From the NCBI GenBank assembly GCA_016284265.1, contig JAEEOM010000070.1, forward strand, positions 1-43,184: a stretch of DNA of 43,184 bases, read 5' to 3'. The notes under the pieces were generated by a model that searched no databases, had not been told where the DNA came from, and worked only from the letters and a program-made list of their open reading frames with translations. Shown in pieces: positions 12,162 through 38,509 of the stretch; position 1 is the first letter of the stretch; each line of letters opens with the position of its first letter. The translations under genes were made by a program, and so were the position numbers. The stretch is from Bacteroidales bacterium. GTDB taxonomy: Bacteria > Bacteroidota > Bacteroidia > Bacteroidales > UBA932.

Positions 12162-12785
12162 ATGAACTATCTTGTCGTCGGTCTGGGCAACATCGGTGAA
12201 GAATACGCCGCCACCCGACACAATATGGGTTTTATGGTATTGGATGCCTGGGCTCAGGCATCCAATGCTGTTTTTACTGTCGGACGCTACGGCGCCACGA
12301 CGGAGATTTCGTTCAAGGGGCAGAAATTCTTCCTGCTGAAACCTTCTACCTATATGAACCTGAGCGGCAAGGCCGTGCACTACTGGCTCCAGAAGACCCG
12401 CATCCCGCAGGAGAATCTGCTGGTGGTGGTCGATGACCTGGCCATCCCTTTCGGGACACTCCGGTTGCGCAAGCGCGGCTCTGCCGGCGGGCACAATGGC
12501 CTCAAGAGCATCGACTACTCCCTGGCCAGCGACGATTATGCCCGGTTGCGCGTCGGAACAGGCAATGGCGGATTCGCCGAAGGCCACCAGGTGGACTTCG
12601 TGCTGGGTGAACTGCTGCTCGAAGAGAAACGGGCCATGCCCGAGTTGCTGGAACGGGCCATCGCCTGCATCAAATGCTATGGCACCGAAGGTATTGACCG
12701 GGCCATGACCCAGTTCAACCGTTCCAAACCGGCGGCTGAGTCTCAGTCGTCGTCTCCTGAATCATCAACAAAGAAAGAGCCGTAG
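12162..12785 (+). CDS. pth: Peptidyl-tRNA hydrolase
   Basis: A 207-residue enzyme releasing tRNA from peptidyl-tRNA drop-off products. The active-site residues are where expected: Asn10 and His20 (VVGLGNIGEEYAATRHNMGF), YMNLSG (Asn66), the VVVDDLAIPFG aspartate and GGHNGLKSI (Asn112). It is co-transcribed with rplY. The last 43 bases overlap the 3' end of the convergent S4-domain gene. A polar, serine-rich tail (PAAESQSSSPESSTKKEP) extends beyond the usual end and is produced by the overlap region. Confidence 0.95.
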   Translation: MNYLVVGLGNIGEEYAATRHNMGFMVLDAWAQASNAVFTVGRYGATTEISFKGQKFFLLKPSTYMNLSGKAVHYWLQKTRIPQENLLVVVDDLAIPFGTLRLRKRGSAGGHNGLKSIDYSLASDDYARLRVGTGNGGFAEGHQVDFVLGELLLEEKRAMPELLERAIACIKCYGTEGIDRAMTQFNRSKPAAESQSSSPESSTKKEP

Positions 12786-23317: not shown

Positions 23318-23824
23318 CTACAAATCCTTTTTACGGAACCAGTCTTTGTCCTCGCCACATGGCCTCCATATTTCAAAATCCTTCCCTTTAATAAAAATAC
23401 GCTCGTCGGTTACCTTAACGCTGAGCAAATGGTTGTTCGTGATAAAGAGAGAGATTTGACAGAAAACCGTATAGTCTGTATTGGGATAGAGACGATCCCA
23501 ATCGCCCGACTGCTTCAATTCATTGAGAGATAAATAATACTTTGAATCATTTATGGAGGAGTGGGACAATACTGTTATGGTGTCTTTTTTCATAAAAATG
23601 ATTTTGTCAAGCGTATCCTCATTGTGATGACACGCAAGATAATAATTAGCACCTTCGCGATAGGAAACACTCCAATCCTGCCAATTCTCAAAAGGGTAAG
23701 ATCCATAGTCAGCGATCAATTGACGCTCACTATAGGGTAGCTGTTGTCCTTTTACCCCACAACTCGTACAAAAAATAAATAATATAAATGATATGATAAT
23801 CAGTATTGAACTATTTGTTTTCAT
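23318..23824 (-). CDS. Lipoprotein, probable immunity protein of the intact Rhs tip (A)
   Basis: A 168-residue protein with signal and lipobox (FIFCTSCGV). Its ATG at 23824 lies inside the last codons of the Rhs gene, a 14-base overlap that includes the Rhs stop codon, implying translational coupling. The body is aromatic-rich (ENWQDWSVSYREGANYYLA) and ends in a charged tail. Position next to the tip of a polymorphic toxin implies an immunity role; a lipid anchor would place it at the envelope. I do not recognise its fold. Confidence 0.68.
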   Translation of the reverse strand: MKTNSSILIIISFILFIFCTSCGVKGQQLPYSERQLIADYGSYPFENWQDWSVSYREGANYYLACHHNEDTLDKIIFMKKDTITVLSHSSINDSKYYLSLNELKQSGDWDRLYPNTDYTVFCQISLFITNNHLLSVKVTDERIFIKGKDFEIWRPCGEDKDWFRKKDL

Positions 23825-26800
23825 TTTGCCAATGGTAACCGACAGATATTGAAAATTGATCATCTTTAGAATCAAGAGTCCATTTGGTTGAGGGGTCGAG
23901 AAAAAAGTTGTAATAATGTGCCCCTATCTTTGCTATTGACAGTGGGACGCCTAATGCGCTTGCACTTGCTCCCCATAAAAAATTTCCGTAATTATAACCA
24001 TTATGTGCAATAGCCCCTTCTCCCTTTGTCTGAGTAATATATAAATCATCAGGGTCGATATAATACTCTTCACTTCCCGTGAAGTCTAACTTTCCGCCCG
24101 TTAGTTTATTTGCGACGCTTTCATTTTTTAAATATCGTATTCCTGCTATTAGTCCGTGATTATCTTCATTGTACGCTCCGGATTGTTTTATAATATTTGA
24201 AATATCTTCATTTGATACGATATGAACTCGTGTATTATTGGTGATTGACGAAGGGTCATTGTCAGGATCCGCAAATGTGGCTTCAATTGTTTCCTCATTG
24301 TTAATGACAATAAGTTTATGGGGCTCATTCGGGACGGGGACTCTTTCCTTATAACGACCTTTTTCAAAAATAAAATTATCCATAAATAGTCCTCGTTTGT
24401 CCACCATATTCACCGGATCCCCATTGCAATAGACATACGGATTGATTCCGTAGTACTTTTCCGCCATGGGGTCATAGGTGTTCCATCTTACGAGCTTCGC
24501 GTCGTACATCCTCGCTCCGAAGTCGAGGTAGGGGAGCGTGGAGCCGGCGACGGCCGTCTGGTCTTCCTTGCCGGAGAACTTCTGGCGGTTGCTCGCGAGT
24601 GTCGGATAGCTGGTCCCGAACGTCGTCCGGCTTCCGAAGGGATAGTAGTCGTTGCGCTCGACGACGGTGCCGGAGGCGTTGACAATCGTTCTTACGCTTC
24701 CGATATGGTCCCGTATCGTGTAGTAGGGCGTCATGGCAGTACCGTTCTTCAAAAATCGTGCAGTACCGTCGGCGCTTGCTTCCGCACTTTCCAAGGCATA
24801 GGTCGGGGTTCCTCCGCTGACGGTCACGGCATAGGTCAGGTCGTCGGCATAGATCACACCGTTGCCGCTTGCGTCTTCCACGCGGAATTTCGTTCCGTCA
24901 GCGAGCCAGTGATAGGTGACCGTCTGGATGTTTCCGCTGGTCACGGTCTCGGGGAGGTTCAGGAGGTTGTAGGTGAACGTCAGGTTCGCCCGGCCGTCGG
25001 CCGTCGTGTTGCCGTTGCCGTCGTGAGTAAACGAAGCGTTGATGTTCGAGCCGTCGTCCTTTCCGCTCACGCCGGTCAGCAGCGGGCCGCTGTAGGTATA
25101 TGAGTAGTCGTCCTGCGCAGTCGATGCACTGGAGCCGTAGCGCTTGAGCGTCAGCAGTGCTCCGTTCCGGTTGTAGGTCAGGTTCCGCTCAGTATAGGCC
25201 GCCGAGCCCGAAGTGCCGGAGGTGCCCGTGAAGCGTGTCGTCGTCATCAGCCGTCCTGCCGCATCGTAGGTGAAGCCGTAGGTGTTGGCCGTCGAATATC
25301 CCTGCTGCGTCATCACCTCCGACAGGCCTCCGGCGTACCTTGCCGCCGTTCCCCTCGTCGGGCTTTCATAGCGGAGGGTCTCCTCGAAGAGCGTTGTTGA
25401 TCCTTTCTTTGCCGTGCGCGTCAGCAGCTGGCTGTGGATGTCGTAGGTGTTGGTGACGATGCCTGCGGCGCCTGTCGCGGTGAGCGTGTCGCACTTGTGG
25501 CGGCCCAAGACATCGTAACCATGACGAACCGCCGCCGTTTTCATTCCCAGTATCGCACTCTCCCTCAGGAGACGGCTTCGGCTATCGAAAAATGCTGTGC
25601 GGTCCAAAGTGCTTGTGGCCCCTCCCAGTGTCCCCGATACTGACCGTCGATCCTCGCTCCCGACATAGTCATAGCGCAGGCTTGTCCGGAGCGTTCCGCT
25701 CAGCGGACCGGTCTCCACCTGCTGCCGCAGCCGGCCTTGCCTGTCGTAGTAATATGCCCTCAGTACATACCGTACCGTGCTTGATGCGATTGTCGAGAGG
25801 TCCGCCAATTTCTCATACAGCAGTCGACCTCCGTTCATCGTGGCGGTATCGTCGGGAGCCACGATGGAATTGGACGGTGGTGCAAAGGCCGGAGCCCCCG
25901 CAGGCCTGGTGTCGTAACTCCGCTCCAAAAGCAGGATATTCGACACCTGCGTATAGACGCCCGCCGGATTCGCGCTGGATGCGAAGGCATTCTTCAGACC
26001 AGAGAAGGAGAAGACGTTGCTTCCCGTCAGGTATTGTCGGATCTCTTCCCCAAAGGGGTTATACTTCGACAATACCCACTTTCCTGCCGTACGCAGATTG
26101 CCGTCCTGACGGGCGACGAGCCTGCCGGCAGGATCATACACGAAATACTCGACGGCACGTCCTGGCTGCCTTCTCTCCGTCAGGCGTCCCAGTCCGTCGT
26201 AGGTGTAGCGATAGCAATGGTTTGCCGCATTGGTCGCGTCGATCGTCCACGACGTGCTGCTTGTGAGCAGGGCGCTTCCTTCCGGCGTCACCACCCAGGT
26301 CACACGGCCGGCGCCGTCGTACACGTAGTACGTATCCGCCGTCTGGCTGGAAGGAAGGTTCCTTCGTTCCAGCACGGTACATCCCCTGTTGTCGGTGAAC
26401 GTCTGCACCGTGATGCCGTCCTCATCGACGGCCGTCACGCAGTGAAGGCTTCCCGCGGGATAGTATCCGCTGACGGTGAGCGTCGCCGAGGTCGCTCCTT
26501 CTTTTACCTTCCAGACTGAACCGGCGGCGTTCGTACTGTAGGACACCTCGGCATCGTGACTGCCGGATGCGTAGGTCGAGCCGGGGCGGCGCGTAGCTGT
26601 CACACGGTTCAGTGCCGAAGGCTCATAGGCGCGTACGGCATAGGCCGCCGCCCCCTCGGAAGCGTTGTACTGACCGGTGTACCAAGTCTGCTGTGCCGTG
26701 AAGGGATTTGATACATTCGACAGCCCCGTGGAAGAAACGAAGGGCAGGTACGTCCGGGCATCATCGCGGCGCACGTTGTCGTAATAGACAGGCGTGACGA

Positions 26801-28163
26801 GACTCCCGCCCGTAGGTGAAGCATCTGCTTGAATCGTTTGTACCGGATAACCCAGTCCATCGTAGTAGGTAATGTCGCGCATCACGGACGTGCCGAGGCT
26901 GTCGCGGAGCGAACGGCGAAGGATCCAGTTCTCACCACCGTCAAGAACTTCTCCGGTGGAAGTCACCGCTATGCCTGCCCGCAGCAGCAGCGACTGCCCT
27001 TTGTACGAAGCGCGGATGCGCCAGGTGCCCGCAGGCGATGAGGGTACCGTGAACGACAGGGGGCTGCCGTTGCCCGTCTGTGTGCTGGCAACTGTCCCGT
27101 CAGGCGCAAGCAGGCTGTATGATACCAGGTGCTGGGAAGATGCCAGCGTGATCACGTTGTTCGTAAGCGTATAGTCCTGCTGGAGAATCTCTCCACCGGA
27201 GGGGACGAAGAAGGTCAGCGTGTCGCCGTCGCTATTGACGAAATACGTGCAGTTGCGTATGGCGGCCCCGAGGTTCGGGCCCCAGGTCAGCGTTAGGCCG
27301 TTTGCGCCGAGGGCGACCTGCACCGTGCCGTCCCACTCCGATGACTGTCCGCTGCTATAAGCCGACAGGATCGTCGTCAGTTGGGAGAGGCTCGACGAAG
27401 TGTTGCGCGTGAACGGGACGCTAAGTGTACCGCCGTTGGGATCGAGATTGTAGGAGGCCGTAGAAAACGTATGGGAATAGCCGTAGAACGCCAGGTAACT
27501 GACCGCGACGCTGCCGTTCATTTCCACCAAAGAGGGATAGTCGGACTGTGCCGTATACGTTCCGGCACGGGTATCGGTGAACGAAAGGGCGCTGTTCGTA
27601 CCCGGAACGGGATCGGAGCATGTGGTAATGTTCCCTTGCGTACGGCACAACTGGTATGTGGCGAAGTCATCTGATCCGGAGAGCCGGAAGTTCACGGTCT
27701 GCCCGTGCCAGATCGTGCTCGTGGAGGGGCTTGTCTTGGTCAGGGTATACACTGCGGAGCCCTGCACGTCCTGTGTCAGGGTTACGGAACCGGAAGATGC
27801 CGTGACATCGATTTCGCGGTATCCTTCCGTGTTGGCGGCAACCGTCAATGTCAGTTTCCCCTCGTAGTTTCCGTAAGTGTAGGTGACGGCGATTTCGGTG
27901 ATGACGTCGCTGCAGCCTGCATTCTCGACGGCCTGCAGTACGAGTGCGCGGAGCGTGCTGGCCGAAGGACCGCCGTTGTAAAAGCCGAATTCGATCTCGA
28001 CGTCTTCGCCGGCGGGCACAACCGGAATCTCGCCGCTGGTTGAGAAGTAGTCGATGCTCGTCTGTACTTCATATTGCGCATGGAGCGGAACTGCGCCCAG
28101 CAGCAGGCTAAAAGCAAGGGCAACAGCTTTTGCCATTAGGGTATGAACAAAGGACATCTTCAT
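23811..28163 (-). CDS. Rhs (YD-repeat) polymorphic toxin-like protein with DUF6443
   Basis: A 1450-residue exported protein. In order it has a signal peptide (ALAFSLLLGAVPLHAQ), a beta-rich Ig-like N-terminal region of about 380 residues, DUF6443 (about 410-550: WILRRSLRDSLG, MRDITYYDGLGYPVQTIQ), multiple YD repeats (YVYDGAGRVTWV, YRYTYDGLGRL), the Rhs-associated core ending near residue 1255 (DFGARMYDAKLVRW, INPYVYCNGDPVNMVD), and a ~195-residue AT-rich tip. The tip carries AHNGYNYGNFLWGASASALG, loosely like polymorphic toxin type 44 domains, but that is only a guess. It starts 4 bases after the preceding gene. The core is repeated five more times in this window, whole or in part. Confidence 0.9.
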   Translation of the reverse strand: MKMSFVHTLMAKAVALAFSLLLGAVPLHAQYEVQTSIDYFSTSGEIPVVPAGEDVEIEFGFYNGGPSASTLRALVLQAVENAGCSDVITEIAVTYTYGNYEGKLTLTVAANTEGYREIDVTASSGSVTLTQDVQGSAVYTLTKTSPSTSTIWHGQTVNFRLSGSDDFATYQLCRTQGNITTCSDPVPGTNSALSFTDTRAGTYTAQSDYPSLVEMNGSVAVSYLAFYGYSHTFSTASYNLDPNGGTLSVPFTRNTSSSLSQLTTILSAYSSGQSSEWDGTVQVALGANGLTLTWGPNLGAAIRNCTYFVNSDGDTLTFFVPSGGEILQQDYTLTNNVITLASSQHLVSYSLLAPDGTVASTQTGNGSPLSFTVPSSPAGTWRIRASYKGQSLLLRAGIAVTSTGEVLDGGENWILRRSLRDSLGTSVMRDITYYDGLGYPVQTIQADASPTGGSLVTPVYYDNVRRDDARTYLPFVSSTGLSNVSNPFTAQQTWYTGQYNASEGAAAYAVRAYEPSALNRVTATRRPGSTYASGSHDAEVSYSTNAAGSVWKVKEGATSATLTVSGYYPAGSLHCVTAVDEDGITVQTFTDNRGCTVLERRNLPSSQTADTYYVYDGAGRVTWVVTPEGSALLTSSTSWTIDATNAANHCYRYTYDGLGRLTERRQPGRAVEYFVYDPAGRLVARQDGNLRTAGKWVLSKYNPFGEEIRQYLTGSNVFSFSGLKNAFASSANPAGVYTQVSNILLLERSYDTRPAGAPAFAPPSNSIVAPDDTATMNGGRLLYEKLADLSTIASSTVRYVLRAYYYDRQGRLRQQVETGPLSGTLRTSLRYDYVGSEDRRSVSGTLGGATSTLDRTAFFDSRSRLLRESAILGMKTAAVRHGYDVLGRHKCDTLTATGAAGIVTNTYDIHSQLLTRTAKKGSTTLFEETLRYESPTRGTAARYAGGLSEVMTQQGYSTANTYGFTYDAAGRLMTTTRFTGTSGTSGSAAYTERNLTYNRNGALLTLKRYGSSASTAQDDYSYTYSGPLLTGVSGKDDGSNINASFTHDGNGNTTADGRANLTFTYNLLNLPETVTSGNIQTVTYHWLADGTKFRVEDASGNGVIYADDLTYAVTVSGGTPTYALESAEASADGTARFLKNGTAMTPYYTIRDHIGSVRTIVNASGTVVERNDYYPFGSRTTFGTSYPTLASNRQKFSGKEDQTAVAGSTLPYLDFGARMYDAKLVRWNTYDPMAEKYYGINPYVYCNGDPVNMVDKRGLFMDNFIFEKGRYKERVPVPNEPHKLIVINNEETIEATFADPDNDPSSITNNTRVHIVSNEDISNIIKQSGAYNEDNHGLIAGIRYLKNESVANKLTGGKLDFTGSEEYYIDPDDLYITQTKGEGAIAHNGYNYGNFLWGASASALGVPLSIAKIGAHYYNFFLDPSTKWTLDSKDDQFSISVGYHWQNENK

Positions 28164-28167
28164 TTCG

Positions 28168-29358
28168 TCATCGGGTTACTGTGTTGTAATGGTACTGCTG
28201 CAGTATGCCGGCGTCATCTTCACGGACGGTGATCAGGCGGTCATTGTCATCGTACGTGTACCAGAAAGTATGGCCTGCAGGGTTGGTCATCCGCTTCGGA
28301 AGACCGTAGCGCTGATAGTCGAAGTCCGTGACGCGGGCCTGGGTCAGGCCGCTGCGCAGGCGTGCCGCCGCCGCGGCCGTATTCGTAATGTCGACGGCAG
28401 GTGACTGGGCAAGGCACGACTCGACCTGCTGACGGGTCGCGTTCTCTATGATGATGGAGACACCGTGCTCGCAGTTCCATACATAGCTGGTGGAAATGTC
28501 ATCCGCATCGGTCTGTTGGATGATGTTCCCCGCATTGTCATACAGGTAAGTGCTCTCGGTTACCCATATGCCTACACTTTCCCAGCGGCGGACTTCAGAA
28601 ACGGCATAAAACGCGCTGTCCAGAAGGTTCGCATGAAAAGCATAGAAGTATCTCACTGCCGCCGTGGTATCCCACGACGAAGAGCCGCTCCGGCGCCGCA
28701 ACTGAACCTCCGTTACGGGATAGGACACGAAATTACGGTCCGTCATCGCCGCGAGGGTGGTGTCGGACGGATAATCCTGCGGAAACGTGCGCGTGGTGCG
28801 CAAAGAATCCCCGTCGGAGGTCCTGCTCCGCTCATCGATTACCTGACCGCGGCTATTGTAAGTATAGCACGTTACCGACGTCACGGAGTCCTGGTCGTAG
28901 TAAGTAGAAGTGGTCCGGGACATGGCTCGTGCCATTCCGGCATACCGTCTCACACGGGCATAGGCTTCTCCGACGTTGGTAAATGCTGACCGGTACTCTG
29001 GTTCCGACAGGTCGTATGAGAGGGTGACGGTCTGCAGGGGAGATGAACTGACGGAAGCATATTCCGCAGTCTTGAGCGGTAACCCCCGAAAATGCTGGAG
29101 ACTGGACCGAGGCTCCAGGATCCTGTTTACATATCGAAGATTGACTATGTCCGATACGGTGTCGATCATGTTACTGCCGGGGCCATCAGAAAGACGATGC
29201 ATCCGCGTGTAAATGTCAGTCATCTCATCGGGACGCTCCGTCCAGCTGGTGAAAGTATGAACGGTTTTGGATCCGTCAAGTCTCGTTTCCGTCACGGACG
29301 GATATTCCAGCATGACGGATCCCGGACGCAGGATAGTGCCCGTGGTTGCATAGTACAC
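28168..29358 (-). CDS. Rhs/YD-repeat protein, C-terminal part of a split gene
   Basis: A 396-residue frame continuing, without any shift, the frame of the gene ending at 29365; a single TAG separates them. It contains YD-type repeats (TYDDNDRLITVREDDAGILQ, YDNAGNIIQQTDADDISTSY) and ends 4 bases before the DUF6443 Rhs gene. The apparent start is GTG at 29358, three codons past the TAG, with no clear ribosome-binding sequence. It is either the dead half of a pseudogene, a reinitiation product, or read-through. Confidence 0.65.
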   Translation of the reverse strand: MYYATTGTILRPGSVMLEYPSVTETRLDGSKTVHTFTSWTERPDEMTDIYTRMHRLSDGPGSNMIDTVSDIVNLRYVNRILEPRSSLQHFRGLPLKTAEYASVSSSPLQTVTLSYDLSEPEYRSAFTNVGEAYARVRRYAGMARAMSRTTSTYYDQDSVTSVTCYTYNSRGQVIDERSRTSDGDSLRTTRTFPQDYPSDTTLAAMTDRNFVSYPVTEVQLRRRSGSSSWDTTAAVRYFYAFHANLLDSAFYAVSEVRRWESVGIWVTESTYLYDNAGNIIQQTDADDISTSYVWNCEHGVSIIIENATRQQVESCLAQSPAVDITNTAAAAARLRSGLTQARVTDFDYQRYGLPKRMTNPAGHTFWYTYDDNDRLITVREDDAGILQQYHYNTVTR

Positions 29359-29364
29359 ATCTAC

Positions 29365-31131
29365 CTAATCGTAATAGCTGGGAGAAGAACCGTAGATTCT
29401 TCCACTATAACGTATCTTGTGTCTGGGATATGAGAGCAGGCGCCCGGGATCGTAACTAAATAACCTTGCGTCGGTTACAGTGCCGTCGGTGTCACGGTTC
29501 TCGATCTCCATGATCCGGACACCCGGACCGACTCCGGTTTCCGGGATGTCTCGCAGATGATAGTCGTTGGCCCGCCGCTTGTCCACGATCTTCTCATAGC
29601 GGTTTGCAGCATAAGAAAAATGTGTGCTGCCGCCTGTGGGATAATAAACCGCTGACATCAGCCCGAGGCGAACCGCCAGCGTATCGGGCAGCTTGCATGA
29701 ATTGGTCGGTTCGCTTTCAATGTAATCAGGACCGGAAGAGTCCTCACTCACGCGTGACCAATCTACGGTTTGTTGGCTACACGCACTCTCTCCCGTCTGG
29801 TTTAGATAACCCCAATGGTCCGTCGCCACCGTCCAGAACGGGGGAAAATATCCCTCGGTCAGCCCCTCGTAAGTCATTCGCCAGGATCCCACGCCGTCGG
29901 TATGGATCTCAGTCAAGAACGGATAGGGGTTGCCCCTGCTGTTCCACGAATAGGAAAGGTGCGTGATGACTTTGTCACAGGTAATGGATTCAAGCATCCT
30001 CGTAGCATAAATAGGTCTCAAATCATTAAGCCCGGCTCCATTCAGAAACTTCCCGCTTTGCAGGGAATCCTTTTCGCTATAATAGAACTGGACGGCGGTA
30101 TTCCCGTCAACGATAATCTTTTCAAGCGGGGCGTAGGTCGAATTGACGCTCGTGCCGAAAAGGTTGGGATTCAAGGAACCGGATGAGCTGAACACCCAGC
30201 GGTCCGGTGAAAAATTCTGCACGGAACGGTTGGGATCGTCATTTTTGATCAAATAAGAAAAAGACAGCACTCGTCCACCGGGCGAGATAATCTTGTTGAG
30301 CCGCCACGCGATGATCGTCCCTTTCTTTGCTCCGGGTTCTTTGCCCAGCCATAGACGGTCCAGATAAGCATCGTCACTCTCAATGGAACCGAACACATAA
30401 CGATACCCGTCTCCTGTAATAATGGTAATTTGGGAACGTTTCCCTCCATAGCCACAGGGGGCATTGACCTTCTCGACATGATAAGTACCGCAGGCATCCC
30501 CCGTATCAAACACGGCGAAAGTCCCGTCATCCCTGCGATAGAAACTGCCGCTGTGCCCGGGCATCCGGAAATGATAGATATCAGAAGATGCATCGTAGTA
30601 ATGGCCACTTATTGCATATGCGACAGTAAGCGCATCATCTGGTTTATCGTTATTTGTCAGCAATTGTCCGCAAATGACTCCACCTGTAACCAGCGAACTG
30701 AAAGGAATGTCGTCGAAGGGTTCGATGTCAGCATATAACGTTTGACCGGAATAAGTGTATAACGTAAATGACCTCTGCCTCCCCTCTGCGTCCATTTCTC
30801 CTTCATCAGCGGCTCCCACCACTTCCCGGGTAATCATTCCGCCGCAGGATAACATCCAGCCCAGGCCAGGCTCCGCCGCCTGTTCGTTCGGCCGCATCCC
30901 GTTGTAATTGTATTCAAGTGAAACCGGGACTGTGAAGTCCTTGTCCTTGTATTCCCCGATCGGTATCGACACTGTCACGCGGCCCGTATAGAGATTCACT
31001 CCATGATCGCCGTAGTGCGTCATCTCCGCTGCTTGCGGCGTCGCAGGCTGCGGGCTTCTCCCCAATGTCAACTGAGCATGAAGAGGAGACGCCAGCGACA
31101 AGACTATCAAGAACATCAGAAACTTTTCCAT
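29365..31131 (-). CDS. SpvB/Rhs-like exported protein, N-terminal part of a split gene
   Basis: A 588-residue protein opening the Rhs operon. The signal peptide (MEKFLMFLIVLSLASPLHAQ) is followed by a region typical of the first partner in Bacteroidota Rhs pairs (GDHGVNLYTGRVTVSIPIG, VPVSLEYNYNGMRPNEQA, GLGWMLSCGGMITREVVG), reminiscent of the SpvB/TcaC shell that encloses Rhs/TcC toxins. The frame stops at TAG (29365-29367) and then continues for 398 more codons. With those the protein would be about 987 residues. The promoter at 31151-31158 shares its operator motif with three other genes. Confidence 0.75.
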   Translation of the reverse strand: MEKFLMFLIVLSLASPLHAQLTLGRSPQPATPQAAEMTHYGDHGVNLYTGRVTVSIPIGEYKDKDFTVPVSLEYNYNGMRPNEQAAEPGLGWMLSCGGMITREVVGAADEGEMDAEGRQRSFTLYTYSGQTLYADIEPFDDIPFSSLVTGGVICGQLLTNNDKPDDALTVAYAISGHYYDASSDIYHFRMPGHSGSFYRRDDGTFAVFDTGDACGTYHVEKVNAPCGYGGKRSQITIITGDGYRYVFGSIESDDAYLDRLWLGKEPGAKKGTIIAWRLNKIISPGGRVLSFSYLIKNDDPNRSVQNFSPDRWVFSSSGSLNPNLFGTSVNSTYAPLEKIIVDGNTAVQFYYSEKDSLQSGKFLNGAGLNDLRPIYATRMLESITCDKVITHLSYSWNSRGNPYPFLTEIHTDGVGSWRMTYEGLTEGYFPPFWTVATDHWGYLNQTGESACSQQTVDWSRVSEDSSGPDYIESEPTNSCKLPDTLAVRLGLMSAVYYPTGGSTHFSYAANRYEKIVDKRRANDYHLRDIPETGVGPGVRIMEIENRDTDGTVTDARLFSYDPGRLLSYPRHKIRYSGRIYGSSPSYYD

Positions 31132-31461
31132 AATAGACTGATTTGTTGTACAAAAATGCGTGTTTTTGCCAGTGTTTTAATCGCGCAAAGAAGCCTCTTC
31201 AGTCCGATTGCGCGACGAAAACTTCATGGCTTATTATCAATCTGATGTTTTCGGATTGTTCGATTGCACCTCCATCTAACGTACCTGAGTAATGTGGCCA
31301 TATTGCAGTATTAGGCCCCTCAGGCGCAATCGAATCATTAAAAACAAGCTGAAAATCTTCATATTATGAGAAAATTGCCGCGCAATCGGACTGAAAGAGG
31401 CTTCTTTTGGGTTTGAAATGCGGACAAAATGCTGCATTTTTGTATATTAAATCTTACGACC
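31132..31461. promoter_or_regulatory. Symmetric divergent control region (Rhs operon / DUF3244-TPR operon)
   Basis: There is no gene in these 330 bases. Four copies of a 9-mer are present: CGATTGCGC (31205-31213), CGATTGCAC (31261-31269), GCGCAATCG (31324-31332) and GCGCAATCG (31380-31388). Each pair is 56 bp apart and points to its own gene. The outer copies lie in 28-29-bp inverted repeats (31187-31214 and 31379-31407). CATTTTTG -7-like elements sit at 31151-31158 (minus) and 31435-31442 (plus), each 54 bp beyond the proximal 9-mer and 20 bp from the ATG, so the two halves are mirror images. Confidence 0.75.
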
Positions 31462-31842
31462 ATGAAAAAGTATATGATTCTCTTGACAGTCTTGATGCTG
31501 TCCGCTTTTACGATGAATGCTACAACTCCGGTCTACGACGGTGAAGAGGGTGATCCGGAGGTTATAGATTTGGGGCAACAGCATAATGGAGAAGATCCGA
31601 CAGGTATACAAACCTTGGGAATTACGGCGTATAAAACGGGGACATCTATTGTTATTACTTTTATTAATTATTCAGGCTATGCCAATGCTTCGGCCTTGGG
31701 ATTGTCAGGGAATGTCTTTTCTGGCCAACAATACATATCTAGAACAGGACTCATTATATTAGACATTTCCAGTCTTCCGCAGGGTAATTATTCTCTCTTT
31801 GTTCAGGCCGGCAATTTGTATTGTGGATCGTTTACGATTTAA
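31462..31842 (+). CDS. DUF3244 family small secreted protein
   Basis: A 126-residue protein with a Sec signal (MKKYMILLTVLMLSAFTMNA) and a mature part of about 100 residues with a beta-sandwich pattern (ITAYKTGTSIVITFINYSG, ISSLPQGNYSLFVQAGNLY, CGSFTI), typical of DUF3244 proteins of Bacteroidales, whose role is unknown. Its 3' end overlaps the TPR-HTH gene, and a paralogue (36431-36805) sits in the same position before a decayed TPR-HTH copy. The repeated pairing suggests that the two proteins work together, for example as exported signal and membrane sensor; that is inference. Confidence 0.75.
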   Translation: MKKYMILLTVLMLSAFTMNATTPVYDGEEGDPEVIDLGQQHNGEDPTGIQTLGITAYKTGTSIVITFINYSGYANASALGLSGNVFSGQQYISRTGLIILDISSLPQGNYSLFVQAGNLYCGSFTI

Positions 31843-33487
31843 TGCTGGTCTTTCTGTACATGGGTTATTCTGTCTGATTATTATCGGATTCTGTTTTGGG
31901 TGCAGCAAAGGCGAAGATACGACCGATAAACAACTGACTGTCGCAGACACTCTTTTGCGGGAGGACCCGGTTGCTTCCTATAAGATTCTAGACAAGATTG
32001 ATCCCTCTCACTTTCAAAAGCGGGAGAAGGCATATTATGGTCTATTGTTGACCATCGCACAGCATAAAAACCATATTCCCTTTTCCAATGATTCCCTGAT
32101 TGGAGAATCAAGGAAATGGTATGAGAAGCATGGGGATTACCATAATCGTGCACGTGCGTTCTTTTATAATGGGCTAGTCCTTCACAAGTTGACAACTGAC
32201 GAAGAGAGGGCTTGTCTTTATATGCGAGAAGCACTAGAGGTCATGGAAGAATACAAGGAGGCTCGGGATGATCGGTTAAAAGCACTGATTTGTTTCTATC
32301 TTGGCCAAGTCAATGACCGAAGTGCGTTCAATTTGGACGAAGCTATCACATATTATCAGGCGGCTGTTGATTTAGAGAAAAGCCTTGAAAATGAAAAGAA
32401 TCTGATTTCAAATTATAGCAGCTTGCTTGTCTGCCTTGTTAAACATGGCCAAACCGATAAGGCAAGTACTGTTTTGTCGGATCTGGACGAAGCATTGGCC
32501 TCCTTCCCCAAAGTAAGGCTTGAAAAGACAAACAATGCAAAGGCGCTATACTATTTATATTCTGAAAAGAATTTGGATAGTGCCCGTTTCTATGCTTTAA
32601 GATGGAATCCATCACGGGAAGATCTCGGACCCAAAAACCATTTGTTGGCTGAATTATGCCGAGCAGAGGGTCACATTGACAGCGCCGTTTTCTACGAGAC
32701 GCATGCGCTGGTACACCGCCGGGAAACAGACACATTGTTATATCACGTTCATTTCGGCATCCTCGCCGATCTATACGATCAGCTAGGTAACGCCGATTCA
32801 ACGGCGCATTATGCCCAGTTGGCATACAAGGCGCTGCACGACAGCTTTGAACAGAAGACTGAGAAACGGATCCTGGAACTGGAAAAACAGTATGACGTGG
32901 CTTCAAGGGAGGCGGCACTGGAGCGGGAACGGCGGGTAAGGAATGTTGCGTTGCTCTTGCTTGCTTTTGCGCTGATGGTTGCCGCGTTGTTGTTCTGGCA
33001 GTGGCGGCTGATGCGCAGGAATGAGGCGTTGCGGCAGCGGGAGGCCCTGAAAGATGCCGTCGCCAAGTCGATAGTCAATGCGGTAGTAGCGACGTATTCC
33101 GGCATCAACAAGCGGCTGGGGGTTATCCATAATCTTCCGGAGAAGGAAAGGCAGGATGCCTTGAACAGCTTCATTCAGGAAAACAAGACGAATGTTTCCA
33201 GGAATCTGTTAGCTGCCTTGGAAACGAATTACAATGATTTGCCGGAGGATGTACGACAGGTGGATGCGTTACTGGACGGTGCGCAACAGCGGGCGGTCTT
33301 CATCCTGACGGAGATGGGATTCGGGCCCGGGGAGATCGGCAAGATGCTGGGCATTTCCAGCAGCCAGGTCCGTACGGTCAAAAAGGCGGTCCGCGATCGC
33401 ATCGTGGAGTCCGACCTGACCCGTCATCGAAGTATCTGTCAGTTACAAGTCATGCAAGTGGGAACGCCTGTCAGGAAGAAAGAATAA
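31823..33487 (+). CDS. TPR membrane regulator with C-terminal HTH
   Basis: About 554 residues. A lipobox-like IIGFCFGCSKG ends the signal. TPR-type helices follow to about residue 370 (NRARAFFYNGLVLHKL, AITYYQAAVDLEKSL, SDLDEALASF), then a coiled coil, one transmembrane helix (VALLLLAFALMVAALLFWQW) and a C-terminal domain ending in a helix-turn-helix (FGPGEIGKMLGISSSQVRTV). This is a sensor with a periplasmic TPR domain and a cytoplasmic DNA-binding domain. No ATG fits; GTG at 31823 (or TTG at 31799) overlaps the DUF3244 gene. It is a candidate regulator of the GCGCAATCG promoters. Confidence 0.78.
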   Translation: MDRLRFNAGLSVHGLFCLIIIGFCFGCSKGEDTTDKQLTVADTLLREDPVASYKILDKIDPSHFQKREKAYYGLLLTIAQHKNHIPFSNDSLIGESRKWYEKHGDYHNRARAFFYNGLVLHKLTTDEERACLYMREALEVMEEYKEARDDRLKALICFYLGQVNDRSAFNLDEAITYYQAAVDLEKSLENEKNLISNYSSLLVCLVKHGQTDKASTVLSDLDEALASFPKVRLEKTNNAKALYYLYSEKNLDSARFYALRWNPSREDLGPKNHLLAELCRAEGHIDSAVFYETHALVHRRETDTLLYHVHFGILADLYDQLGNADSTAHYAQLAYKALHDSFEQKTEKRILELEKQYDVASREAALERERRVRNVALLLLAFALMVAALLFWQWRLMRRNEALRQREALKDAVAKSIVNAVVATYSGINKRLGVIHNLPEKERQDALNSFIQENKTNVSRNLLAALETNYNDLPEDVRQVDALLDGAQQRAVFILTEMGFGPGEIGKMLGISSSQVRTVKKAVRDRIVESDLTRHRSICQLQVMQVGTPVRKKE

Positions 33488-34841: not shown

Positions 34842-36427
34842 TTAATCTTCTCTCATTCCCACTCGCTCCCCGACCTGCATAACCAGCAGTTGACGGATAT
34901 CGGGGGAATAACTTATTGCTGATTCATTGATTTGCTCACGAATGGTTTTCTTCACGGTACGAACCTGGCTGCTCGAGGTGCCTAGCAGGCCAGAGATTTC
35001 CGAAGGGTAGAACCCCATTTCGGTAAGGACAAACACCGCCTTTTGCTGGGCGCTGTCCATGACCAATTCGGGCAAATCGGAATAATTCTCTTCCAAAGCC
35101 GCTATTAGATTGGTTGAAGAATTGTTCCGGTTTTCGATAATGAGTCGTTCCAACGCCGCCTGCCGCTGTTTCTCCGGAAGATTATGGATGACAGACAATT
35201 TGTTGTTAATACCGGCATAGGTAGCAACGACCGCTTTCACCATAGACTGGGCGATGGCGTCTTTAATCCGCTCCTGATTGGCAAGGGCCAGATTTCTCCG
35301 GGTCAACAGAAGAATGGCAACCAGCAGGCCCACCGCGATGAACGTGAAGAAAAGACTCAACCATAATAATCTACGCTCACTTTTCGCCTTGTCGAGTTCG
35401 GCTTGTTTTTCCGACAGGTCATACTGCTTCTCCAACTCCAGGATCCGTTTTTCTGTCTTTTGCTGAAAACTGTCGTGAGGCGCCTGATAGGCCAACTGGG
35501 CATAATGCGCTATTGAATCGGCGTTGCCCAGATTCTCATAAAGATCGGCCAGATTGAGAAAATAAACGTGATAGCTTAACGTATCGGCCGAGCGACGCAA
35601 TGAATAACAGTTTTTCATACTCAATCGCATTATTATAGTCCCCCCGTTCAAGGCTGATGGTTGCGAGCATATTGAATTTGGCAGATCTATCGGGTGTGGT
35701 AGGACTCCACATCATACAATAATGATATGCATTATCCAGATTATTATCTTGCTGAAGATAATTAAATGGCTTTGACATTGAACACATTTTCCAGATGGAG
35801 ATCGGTACTCTTAGAAATTGTGCTATCAATCTCATATAGAACCGTTCTTGCCAGATTATCATTAATCTTCGTCAGACAAACAAGCAAGTCGCAATAATCA
35901 AGAATCAAATTTCTGGGGTTTTCTAGTTTCTCTTCTGCCGCAATTGCCTCTTTGTAATAGTGTACATCTTCATAATCATTAAAACTGGCTTTATGAATCT
36001 TCCCTAAAATACGCAAATAATAAAGCATCCAGTTTAACATCATTTATGGCGTGTTTTTTCAAAATAGCTGCGGCTTCTTGCATATATGTCAGGGCGTCAA
36101 CATTATTCGACGAGAGTTTGTATAAAACAAGCCCGTGATAGAAACTGGATCTTGCTTGATTATGGTGATTGTCGGAATTCTTATAATACTCGTATGCAAT
36201 TGAGTGAGCAACAGATAATAGTAAGCGCCATCCTGTTTACTAAGAGATTCAGGATCAATCATCAATAGCGAGTCCAATACGGTTCCCTGCTTTTCTGCCA
36301 TGATTAGGTCAAAATAAGCTAACCGATCCCTTTCGGATTTTGAAAACTGATTACACCCACACACCACTCCAAATAATAAGAGTAATGTGAGAGAATAATA
36401 GAGAAGCGATAAAAAAGGAGGTCTCAA
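34842..36427 (-). pseudogene. Decayed paralogue of the TPR-HTH regulator
   Basis: Four overlapping frames together rebuild a homologue of the intact regulator. They are a lipobox start (LLLLFGVVCGCNQFS) with AYYYLLLTQLHT (36089-36427), KEAIAAEEKLENPRNLILDY (35762-36043), QDNNLDNAYHYCMMWSPTTP (35536-35862), and a C-terminal 250 residues with the transmembrane helix and HTH (YPSEISGLLGTSSSQVRTV, 34842-35651). At least three frameshifts separate them. The last fragment is intact and could in principle yield a short membrane HTH protein. It starts 3 bases after the DUF3244 paralogue's stop. Confidence 0.85.
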
Positions 36428-36430
36428 TTG

Positions 36431-36805
36431 TTATTTATTGAAAGTACCTGAATACAAGGAATCAGCAAAAACGGTAAGTGAATACATTCCCGCAGGAAGT
36501 GATGAAATATCAATATAAACATATCCCGTTCCCACGATAGATTGTTGTCCTGAAACAGCAAAACCTCCTAAGCCTGAAACAACGGCCGAGGCGTTCCATG
36601 AATAATTGGAAAAATAAATAATAACTTGAAAATCAGTTTTATATGCATGTATATAACAATGGTTAAATGACGTGGGTTCTTCTCTGTTTTGTTGATTTTT
36701 CAGCTCTATTTCTTCAGGATTATCGCCATTTCTGGCAGGGATAAAAGCATTTGATAAAGTGATAATCATCAGCAGAGTCGCACAAAGAGAGAAAAGTTTT
36801 TTCAT
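36431..36805 (-). CDS. DUF3244 family small secreted protein, second copy
   Basis: A 124-residue paralogue of the protein at 31462-31842: signal peptide (MKKLFSLCATLLMIITLSNA), then the same beta pattern (HAYKTDFQVIIYFSNYSWNA, DISSLPAGMYSLTVFADSLY, SGTFNK). The frame is intact although its regulator partner and the Rhs genes downstream are broken. It keeps the paired GCGCAATCG promoter at the same spacing. The ATG at 36805 starts the signal peptide directly. Confidence 0.75.
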   Translation of the reverse strand: MKKLFSLCATLLMIITLSNAFIPARNGDNPEEIELKNQQNREEPTSFNHCYIHAYKTDFQVIIYFSNYSWNASAVVSGLGGFAVSGQQSIVGTGYVYIDISSLPAGMYSLTVFADSLYSGTFNK

Positions 36806-37117
36806 ATCAATTAGTTTTATATAGAAAATTGCCATTAGTTACTCGTTTTTCAAACGCTTATCCTAATTCACCCGGTTCGATTGCGCCGCAAATAATAGTT
36901 AGTATCCTATCATTCAGTACTTTCAGTATCATCCGGTTGCGCTGCCGATTATATTGACCTTTGCGTGGGCCAAGCATACAGTCCCCTGAAATAAGCGCAA
37001 TTGGTTGAGCCTAATACGTTGATTATCAACAACATATATGCGCAATCGGTTTTCCGGGTATTGCTTTCCTAATTATTATAACAGATCTTTGTAAAAATCT
37101 ATAACAAAACTATTCAT
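36806..37117. promoter_or_regulatory. Divergent control region (DUF3244 copy 2 / C10 protease)
   Basis: There is no gene here. Leftward sites are CGATTGCGC (36878-36886) and CGGTTGCGC (36934-36942), 56 bp apart; a CAATTTTC element (minus strand, 36824-36831) lies 54 bp beyond the proximal site and 19 bp from the ATG. Rightward sites are GCGCAATTG (36995-37003) and GCGCAATCG (37040-37048), 45 bp apart; GATCTTTG (37084-37091) lies 43 bp beyond. The rightward spacings are both 11 bp, one helical turn, shorter. Confidence 0.7.
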
Positions 37118-38509
37118 ATGCGACATCCTCACTTATTTCCGCTCATTATTGCCGTTGGTCTCCTACTCGGATCCTGTGGAACCTACGAAAAGGATGATTT
37201 TGAAACCGAAGATACTTCCTTCTCGAAAGGAATTACCCTTTTACCTACTCGACAAACAATCTCAGCTGACGAGGCTGTCCTTGTTGCCCAGCTATTCAAT
37301 TCAAACGATAACACATTATTAACGAAAGCCAGTAATCGCATTGTTTCAAGCACACAAACGCTTGAATCATCAGACGGCGAACCATTGATGCATATCATCA
37401 ATTATGAAAAAGAAGGGGGTTATGTAGTTGTTTCTGCTACGACCAACTATGTTCCTGTATTGGCTTTTTCTGAAAAAGGAAACTTGATTCTTGATGAAAA
37501 GAGTCCAGCGGTCTTTTACCTTAAAGAAATCGGGAAAGACGTCTCCTACTATAAAGAGCAACCCGATGATAGTGTGAAAACCTACCGCAAGATGTGGAAA
37601 TCTTATGAATCTTCGGTCCAACCGGATTATCCGCAGATAAAAAGCGGTGATATTACCTCATTGGTGAGTAGTTATATGAATCAATGGTATGCAGCAGGAT
37701 ATGATTACTATACTCTTTCAAACGCTCAAACTCAAATTCCTTCCAACATCTACAGTTCTTTCGTTTCAATAGCAGAAAGAGAAGCGAATCCGGATTTTGA
37801 TTATATGGATTTTTCTTTTGTGACAATAGGGTATACCTACGTATCTTCAACGACGTATGGCCCCCTTATTGGTTCTTCTTGGAGTCAACACTATCCTTTT
37901 GCGTCTTCAACCGATGATCCATGCGGTTGTGGCGCTACAGCAATCGGGCAGATCATGTATTATTACAGTTCCCCTGAAGGAGACTGGGATTGGGATAATA
38001 TCTATGCATCTTCCGGGACTGAAGACACCCGCTTACTCATACACTATATCAAATCACAAATCTCACCTCTTGGCGGATATAGCTCTATACTTATTTTTAA
38101 TTCAGGCTTTTTGTCTCAAGCCGGTTTTTCCCATAGTCTCATCTCTCATAGCAATAACAGAGTCTCCTCATCTATTATGAATGGTATGCCCGTCTATATG
38201 TCGGGAGAAGTCAATAACAACTTCTTTGAAAGACATTCTTGGGTTTGCGAAGGATATCAATCTCCAGCATTCATGATTTCAAATTACACATTGTGGGTTA
38301 TAGATATTGATCCGTATCCTTCTTATGATTATACTTCCGTCGCTGGTGATAATACTACCACAACATTACAACCCGGCTACTATTATATGAATTGGGGTTG
38401 GGGAGGATCATATAATGGGTGGTTCTTATCGGACGATGTGAGTCCTCATTCCGGTCTGGATTTATCAACGAATCGTTATGATCTCGTCGATATAGCTCCT
38501 TCTAATTAA
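37118..38509 (+). CDS. C10 (streptopain-like) cysteine protease, lipoprotein
   Basis: A 463-residue protein with lipobox LLLGSC (Cys20), an N-terminal propeptide of the Spi/I69 type (ISADEAVLVAQLF, EGGYVVVSATTNYVPVLAFS) and a C10 catalytic domain. The domain shows GPLIGSSWSQHYPF, the catalytic cysteine in DPCGCGATAIGQIMYYY (Cys271), the catalytic histidine in RHSWVCEGY (His373) and the conserved NWGWGGSYNGWF. Relatives include SpeB, interpain and the Bfp proteases, which degrade host proteins. A paired GCGCAATCG promoter ties it to the Rhs and DUF3244 genes. It is AT-richer than the core chromosome. Confidence 0.9.
   Translation: MRHPHLFPLIIAVGLLLGSCGTYEKDDFETEDTSFSKGITLLPTRQTISADEAVLVAQLFNSNDNTLLTKASNRIVSSTQTLESSDGEPLMHIINYEKEGGYVVVSATTNYVPVLAFSEKGNLILDEKSPAVFYLKEIGKDVSYYKEQPDDSVKTYRKMWKSYESSVQPDYPQIKSGDITSLVSSYMNQWYAAGYDYYTLSNAQTQIPSNIYSSFVSIAEREANPDFDYMDFSFVTIGYTYVSSTTYGPLIGSSWSQHYPFASSTDDPCGCGATAIGQIMYYYSSPEGDWDWDNIYASSGTEDTRLLIHYIKSQISPLGGYSSILIFNSGFLSQAGFSHSLISHSNNRVSSSIMNGMPVYMSGEVNNNFFERHSWVCEGYQSPAFMISNYTLWVIDIDPYPSYDYTSVAGDNTTTTLQPGYYYMNWGWGGSYNGWFLSDDVSPHSGLDLSTNRYDLVDIAPSN

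Follow-up and report, generated by a model that had tools for sequence, protein, structure and literature searches.

Paired direct-repeat sites at four promoters of an apparently duplicated Bacteroidales cassette, likely targets of a linked membrane-anchored regulator

The paired 9-mer sites in two divergent intergenic regions, together with the genes that accompany them, suggest that the four promoters of these regions are targeted by a membrane-anchored one-component regulator whose gene lies between the two regions, the whole forming a local, self-regulated cassette. We consider this reading likely. It concerns a 43,184-nucleotide stretch of DNA from a Bacteroidales bacterium, here called the window, which is contig C29 of a 2.42 Mb assembly (G000; 206 contigs, estimated 88% complete). 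Its relevant features are listed below; genes are named by their start positions, and G011 and G022 are two other genomes of the genus.

29365..31131, minus strand: first part of the Rhs reading frame; no Pfam match by itself, though the later ORFs match
31205..31213, minus strand: proximal site of the Rhs promoter, GCGCAATCG, from sequence
31261..31269, minus strand: distal site of the Rhs promoter, GTGCAATCG, one base off GCGCAAYYG and the sole off-pattern site
31324..31332, plus strand: distal site of the 31462 promoter, GCGCAATCG, from sequence
31380..31388, plus strand: proximal site of the 31462 promoter, GCGCAATCG, from sequence
31412..31415, plus strand: -33-like TTTG of the 31462 promoter, at +32 of the proximal site
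31439..31442, plus strand: -7-like TTTG of the 31462 promoter, at +59 of the proximal site
31462..31842, plus strand: small secreted protein, DUF3244-like, 126 aa (Pfam, paralogy)
31799..33487, plus strand: regulator in a single open frame, carrying TPRs, a C-terminal HTH and, as read from the sequence, an N-terminal lipoprotein-like signal and one transmembrane stretch
34842..36200, minus strand: second regulator copy, frame-broken, in overlapping separate pieces (profile and sequence matches)
36431..36805, minus strand: paralogous small secreted protein, DUF3244-like, 124 aa (Pfam, paralogy)
36824..36827, minus strand: -7-like TTTC of the 36805 promoter, at +59, one base different from TTTG
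36851..36854, minus strand: -33-like TTTG of the 36805 promoter, at +32 of the proximal site
36878..36886, minus strand: proximal site of the 36805 promoter, GCGCAATCG, kept in G011 and G022
36934..36942, minus strand: distal site of the 36805 promoter, GCGCAACCG, spaced 56 bp from its proximal partner
36995..37003, plus strand: distal site of the C10 promoter, GCGCAATTG, from sequence
37020..37028, plus strand: palindrome TGATTATCA lying between the two sites of the C10 promoter, with a 16-bp gap to the distal one
37040..37048, plus strand: proximal site of the C10 promoter, GCGCAATCG, spaced 45 bp from its distal partner
37060..37063, plus strand: -33-like ATTG of the C10 promoter, in a TATTG stretch common to G011 and G022
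37084..37091, plus strand: -7-like GATCTTTG of the C10 promoter, its TTTG at +48 of the proximal site, an offset equal in all four 45-bp promoters
37118..38509, plus strand: C10 cysteine protease lipoprotein with an Inhibitor_I69 (Spi-type) prodomain (Pfam)

Each of the two intergenic regions carries two pairs of GCGCAAYYG-like 9-mers, directed towards the genes, and the two regulator copies sit between the regions. Three promoters, those of 31462, Rhs (31131) and 36805, have their paired sites 56 bp apart; in the C10 promoter the distance is 45 bp. Measured from the first base of the proximal site, the -7-like TTTG lies at +59 for 31462 and Rhs, at +59 as TTTC for 36805, and at +48 for C10. 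An earlier sequence-only reading had placed 9-mers at 36878, 36934, 36995 and 37040, and all four are there; its 56 and 45 bp spacings are correct, and its figures of 54 and 43 bp reflect a different reference point. It had also described an 11-bp shift, which is real, since both C10-promoter distances are exactly 11 bp shorter (45 versus 56; +48 versus +59). Helical phasing of the spacings is suggestive only: against random integers, the distinct spacings 45/56/66 gave p 0.011 and 45/54/56/66 gave p 0.025, in a test that took in weakly matching cargo-side spacings of the type II modules described below.

A chance origin of the site pairs was ruled out by shuffles, reversed controls, scans of the genus and order, and a matrix test. 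GCGCAAYYG occurs nine times in the window against 2.6 expected, a count reached in 1 of 100 shuffles. Two of these nine copies, GCGCAACCG at 12462 and 12543 (12462-12551, minus strand), lie 81 bp apart within an ORF at 12162-12785 and are probably chance occurrences of the motif. Across the 2.42 Mb assembly GCGCAATCG is present in 19 copies (reversed control, 1), five of them in the two intergenic regions. A genome-wide regulon was considered and rejected: the other 14 copies, read in context, comprise 12 within ORFs and two in a dispersed palindromic repeat, across which a lax ORF finder also puts an ORF start. Pairs, searched with two patterns in G000, are confined to the two intergenic regions. 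Among 40 genomes of the genus, GCGCAATYG-N33..52-GCGCAATYG was found at five places in three genomes (two in G000, two in G011, one in G022; reversed control, 0), each time in the space that separates a DUF3244-like gene from the gene diverging from it. Extending the scan to 295 genomes of the order, G000 included, added three places, in ORFs of 111, 563 and 747 aa called by a mechanical ORF finder (reversed control, 1). Shuffles, reversed controls and these scans thus agree with the earlier judgement that four promoters of one geometry are unlikely by chance, and the motif scan proposed with it, run here in a version, left it standing, the pairs not falling at random positions.

The sites are also conserved. 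In the counterpart of the 36805/37118 region, the successive distances are 56/63/45 bp in G011 as compared to 56/61/45 in the window, and G022 has spacings of 55 and 45 bp. In the three-way alignment 66 of 72 bases in site columns are identical to the window, against 248 of 552 in the rest of the intergenic region. When eight promoters at four other loci (G011, G022, G023 and G028b) were scored with a matrix built on the eight sites in the window, each gave p 0.001 to 0.008 against Markov resamples; none of these loci is fully blind, because G011 and G022 were known to carry sites and G023 and G028b, found through their regulators, had earlier been inspected for repeats. Over spacings of 20 to 90 bp, the mean best-pair score was highest at 56 bp for the regulator side (14.8; mean -3.9, sd 3.7) and at 45 bp for the cargo side (16.6; mean -6.7, sd 4.2). 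G028b backs this spacing rule only at fixed spacing, since its own best spacings are 50 and 60 bp. With the threshold set at the score of the weaker regulator-side pair among G011 and G022, a scan of 585,342 bases returned seven pair matches, all of them module promoters and four of them training ones; the pairs of the G022 cargo side, G023 and G028b fall below it. In a motif-free repeat test, most pairs were individually non-significant.

The likely binder is one that the sequence-only reading overlooked: the TPR-transmembrane-HTH regulator, the constant partner gene of these promoters. The true start of the 31799 regulator is uncertain, as the listed TTG overlaps the DUF3244 gene. Its HTH is a weak Pfam match to Sigma70_r4_2 (E 0.0066), and its TPR matches are weak as well. 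Searching 100 relatives with the 31462 product gave nine places in six genomes, corresponding to eight genes (two places are one gene). All eight adjoin a TPR/transmembrane/HTH regulator gene, counting the broken regulator on the 36805 side and one in G022 assumed from two contig ends. A profile search of the 40 genomes added four regulators with paired sites and without a DUF3244 match: G015, G023 (in two frames), G028a (with a weak pair) and G028b. The divergent cargo varies. It is a C10 protease in the window, G022, G033 and G004; a serpin in G028a and, behind the C10 gene, in G022; and Rhs in the window. The cargo lipoproteins of G011, G015, G023 and G028b have no Pfam match, with a DUF4249 gene next in G011 and G015. 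In G025 the downstream gene has a Spi-type prodomain and is cut by the contig end. Serpin lipoproteins adjoin two regulator modules (L027 2859-4097 and L100 2913-4175), which suggests that cargo includes both proteases and protease inhibitors. Because linkage to the regulator is constant and the cargo varies, the regulator offers the most economical candidate for the factor that binds, and it is likely to regulate its own gene.

If so, the mechanism would involve: sensing of a signal by a periplasmic TPR domain of the regulator; binding of its cytoplasmic HTH to two direct-repeat GCGCAAYYG sites on one helix face, preceding a weak promoter of the sigma-ABfr type (-33 TTTG, -7 NAnnTTTG); and a probable third contact at a TGATWATCA palindrome between the sites. 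The bound regulator, probably acting as an activator from these sites, would switch on its own operon, comprising the DUF3244-like gene and the regulator, and also a divergent, exchangeable cargo gene (C10 protease, serpin, Rhs or lipoprotein). As the cassette appears to be duplicated and the second regulator is broken, the one unbroken regulator (31799-33487) would serve all four window promoters. The Rhs, DUF3244-like and C10 genes are thus likely to form one regulon at this locus. The earlier proposal of a single regulon stands to the extent that a shared, non-random and conserved code precedes all four genes; what it describes looks more like a duplicated local cassette than a wide regulon.

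Consistent with recognition by the linked regulator, the site sequence is associated with HTH subclass across six type I modules, five type II modules and G025. With so few modules, and with ancestry tracked by both HTH subclass and motif, this association is support, not proof. Type I HTHs (W1 and W2 of the window, G011, G022, G023 and G028b) are mutually 44-88% identical over 41 residues. Their modules have GCAA/GCGAAA sites, 55-56 bp apart on the regulator side. There, TTTG is at +59 in three of six (W1, G011, G022), is replaced by TTTC in W2, lies at +48 in G028b and is absent in G023. On the cargo side the spacing is 45 bp in W2, G011, G022 and G023, with TTTG at +48 in all four, and 56 bp on the Rhs side of W1; G028b shows no clear cargo-side spacing. 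Type II HTHs (G033, G004, G011b, G015 and G028a, two of them nearly identical) share 54-71% identity over the four compared. Type II modules have GAAAATG sites at 54-55 bp, and the -7 offset is 46 in the four regulator-side promoters measured. G025 carries GCGTTACTT at 66 bp twice, before the regulator and before the C10-like gene, with an offset of 58.

Another DNA-binding protein, possibly a global one, could instead occupy the sites as real operators, with the TPR regulator no more than a linked gene. The putative third element bears directly on this alternative. In 10 of 13 promoters, three of them with two mismatches, TGATWATCA has its centre 29-30 bp beyond the point where the distal site starts. 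This placement was reached in 0 of 500 shuffles, a result that is not a blind test because the element had been spotted in these very sequences, some with mismatches. In the assembly it occurs at 31 places as compared to 5 for the reversed control, which speaks for such a protein. Likewise, when GCAANCG followed by TGATWATCA was sought in 40 genomes, the gap was, by hand count, exactly 16 in 38 of 61 matches, spread over 9 of the 40 genomes (reversed control, 1). This half-site recurs far from the module: 37 of the 38 lie outside the module promoters read, the remaining one being the G023 module promoter. Yet the module promoters of G011 and G022 are present without any gap-16 match, the detected site pairs are restricted to regulator neighbourhoods, and the motif varies with the HTH subclass of the regulator. 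A separate binder is therefore unlikely, and the linked regulator remains the preferred one.

In G000 the half-site also forms part of a dispersed, imperfect palindromic intergenic repeat of about 100 bp, arranged, with variation, as GTGGC..TGATTATCA-N16-hairpin-N16-TGATTATCA..GCCAC. Copies are at L138 911-1040, L147 1040-1169, L094 4240-4370, L154 964-1093, L014 941-1070 and L088 1328-1450. Six loci gave no Rfam match at gathering thresholds, and four of the G000 repeat copies had none either.

Shared ancestry alone would hold that the cassette was duplicated and the sites inherited without function. The window does look as though it carries the cassette twice through duplication, and the two DUF3244-like genes are paralogues. 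With P1 to P4 denoting the Rhs, 31462, 36805 and C10 promoters, P1 and P2 align over about 130 bp with a score of 114 against a maximum of 63.5 in 300 shuffles; P2-P3 (80 versus 56.5) and P1-P3 (69.5 versus 58) likewise exceed their shuffle maxima. Against ancestry alone, P4 has the code and does not align beyond shuffles with P1 (45.5 versus 52.5) or P2 (36.5 versus 59), and only marginally with P3 (53 versus 50.5). Moreover, two one-base gaps set P1 apart from P2 in the stretch from proximal site to -7 element, yet +59 holds in both, and across species the sites are kept while the rest of the region has diverged. We regard this alternative as very improbable and favour functional sites recognised by the linked regulator. 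The alignment with the 31462 promoter, together with the 56/59 geometry that makes the Rhs promoter an exception to the 45/48 cargo rule, is best explained by promoter copying; the Rhs promoter is probably a copy of the DUF3244-side one. The Rhs frame itself is split into three ORFs (23811-31131, minus strand) by an in-frame TAG at 29365, leading to an ORF at 28168-29358, and a frame change near 28165, leading to an ORF at 23811-28163; it is a pseudogene or an assembly error.

A perfect 13-bp inverted repeat (31187-31199/31395-31407) flanks the Rhs/DUF3244 promoter region and could make it an invertible promoter, but the repeat apparently belongs to the copied block of promoter sequence, and 36700-37200 yielded no inverted repeat, so that inversion, like repression from the sites by the regulator or another factor, which must contend with sites placed upstream of the -33/-7-like elements, deserves very little weight. 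A position upstream of these elements is the usual one for activators, and we infer activation by the linked regulator.

The 31462 product scores 23.9 bits against DUF3244 (PF11589), and the 36805 product 14.1 bits (E 0.047), both below the gathering score of 25. The two products are 45% identical (E 8e-24) and clear paralogues. The description of the 36805 gene as a second DUF3244 gene is thus weak by Pfam and holds by paralogy with the 31462 product. A profile of six relatives matches the PDB DUF3244 entry 3sd2 at E 0.006; these products are related to the family model and stand just outside it. C10 membership is firmer, with PF01640 at 59.9 bits and PF13734 at 51.3 bits, both above cut-off, and the protein contains the words CGATA, RHSWV and NWGWGG, which we take to be the catalytic Cys and His motifs of a C10 protease.

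C10 proteases occur in 27 of the 40 genomes of the genus, with at most 17 matches in one, and their frames fall into a long class, mostly about 590-660 aa, and a short class, mostly about 450-560 aa. That all short C10 genes are tied to the code was considered and rejected. In a set of 31 regions, 29 around C10 genes or fragments plus two G000 sites, 27 of the 29 had no DUF3244 or regulator match within the stretch read, several stretches ending at a contig end. The remaining two, with more distant regulators, are in G031 (C10, DUF3244 and regulator) and G026 (C10 and regulator). No site pair was found in G026 or in two of the three G031 upstream stretches, the third being cut by the contig, and a close C10 relative in G004:C17 has no site pair.

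Known systems share parts of this arrangement. Bacteroidetes sigma-ABfr promoters have TAnnTTTG at -7 and TTTG at -33 (PMC7366714). The regulator-side promoters of W1, G011 and G022 resemble them in their TTTG-type elements at -7 and -33, which lie 27 bp from each other; they differ in that the full TAnnTTTG is present at -7 only in the two G025 promoters and that the upstream paired sites are additional. TTTG stands at a fixed offset in many, though not all, module promoters. Bacteroides C10 proteases btp/bfp are coupled to, and co-transcribed with, the staphostatin-like inhibitors bti/bfi (PMC3462683). BT2221 (btiZ), a candidate C10 inhibitor there, is annotated DUF3244 (PMC10434189). The window resembles btp/bfp in that its C10 lipoprotease adjoins a small exported protein with predicted beta structure. 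Unlike bti/bfi, the DUF3244-like gene is divergent from the protease and stands in front of a regulator gene.

BT_3442 is the TPR protein of the MACPF cluster BT_3442-3433 in B. thetaiotaomicron (PMC2954219). The 31799 regulator matches the BT3442 family (NF053779) over residues 25-418 with 30.1 bits and E 2.1e-7, as compared to an equivalog cut-off of 940 bits, and is a distant relative only; the likeness is that of a TPR protein of near-equal length (model 563, window 562) with a weak sequence match. BT_3441 presumably belongs to DUF3244. In both systems the TPR protein has a small Ig-like protein and secreted lipoproteins, the cargo, as neighbours, the difference being that the cargo there is MACPF and that paired-site promoters were not detected in the upstream stretches of that family. 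BT3442-family TPR genes were found in other Bacteroidales in 7 of 198 genomes, at 12 loci. A DUF3244 gene adjoins one above the Pfam cut-off in five of 11 order-level regions, with one further weak case, among six small neighbours tested. Of 17 upstream stretches from other Bacteroidales one was too short, and the other 16 gave no significant repeat near 45, 54-56 or 66 bp. Non-significant 45-bp repeats are present in L175 and in the L172 DUF3244 upstream stretch, and two of the wider Bacteroidales stretches reached p <0.05, with repeats at 69 bp (T-rich) and 76 bp.

These parallels allow a broader proposal, which we regard as doubtful: a plug-in Bacteroidales cassette in which a periplasm-sensing TPR regulator, a DUF3244 partner and a phase-locked divergent promoter would be retained while one secreted effector replaces another (C10 protease, serpin, Rhs or pore-forming proteins), with the DUF3244 protein as the ligand of the regulator. 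If true, the cell would weigh free inhibitor against released protease and tune cargo output. The open-licence literature searched yielded no described operator for Bacteroidales membrane TPR regulators. The paired sites offer a concrete candidate operator for a class of them, one linked to secreted proteases, serpins and Rhs proteins, and the spacing classes of 45, 54-56 and 66 bp provide a simple rule for finding more members and for probing helical-phase dependence.

Relatives of the regulator extend beyond the genus. Type I relatives occur in five genomes in other genera of the family (149 searched); none was found in viral contigs. Of 22 named loci that encode regulator relatives, the closest six are in MAGs labelled Bacteroidales or Bacteroidia. 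Four of these derive from the omasum of sheep, goat and buffalo, and the other two bear RUG names, in which RUG presumably denotes rumen. In another Bacteroidales genome, at L170 10380-13008, two thiol-activated-cytolysin-like lipoprotein genes lie between two BT3442-family genes.
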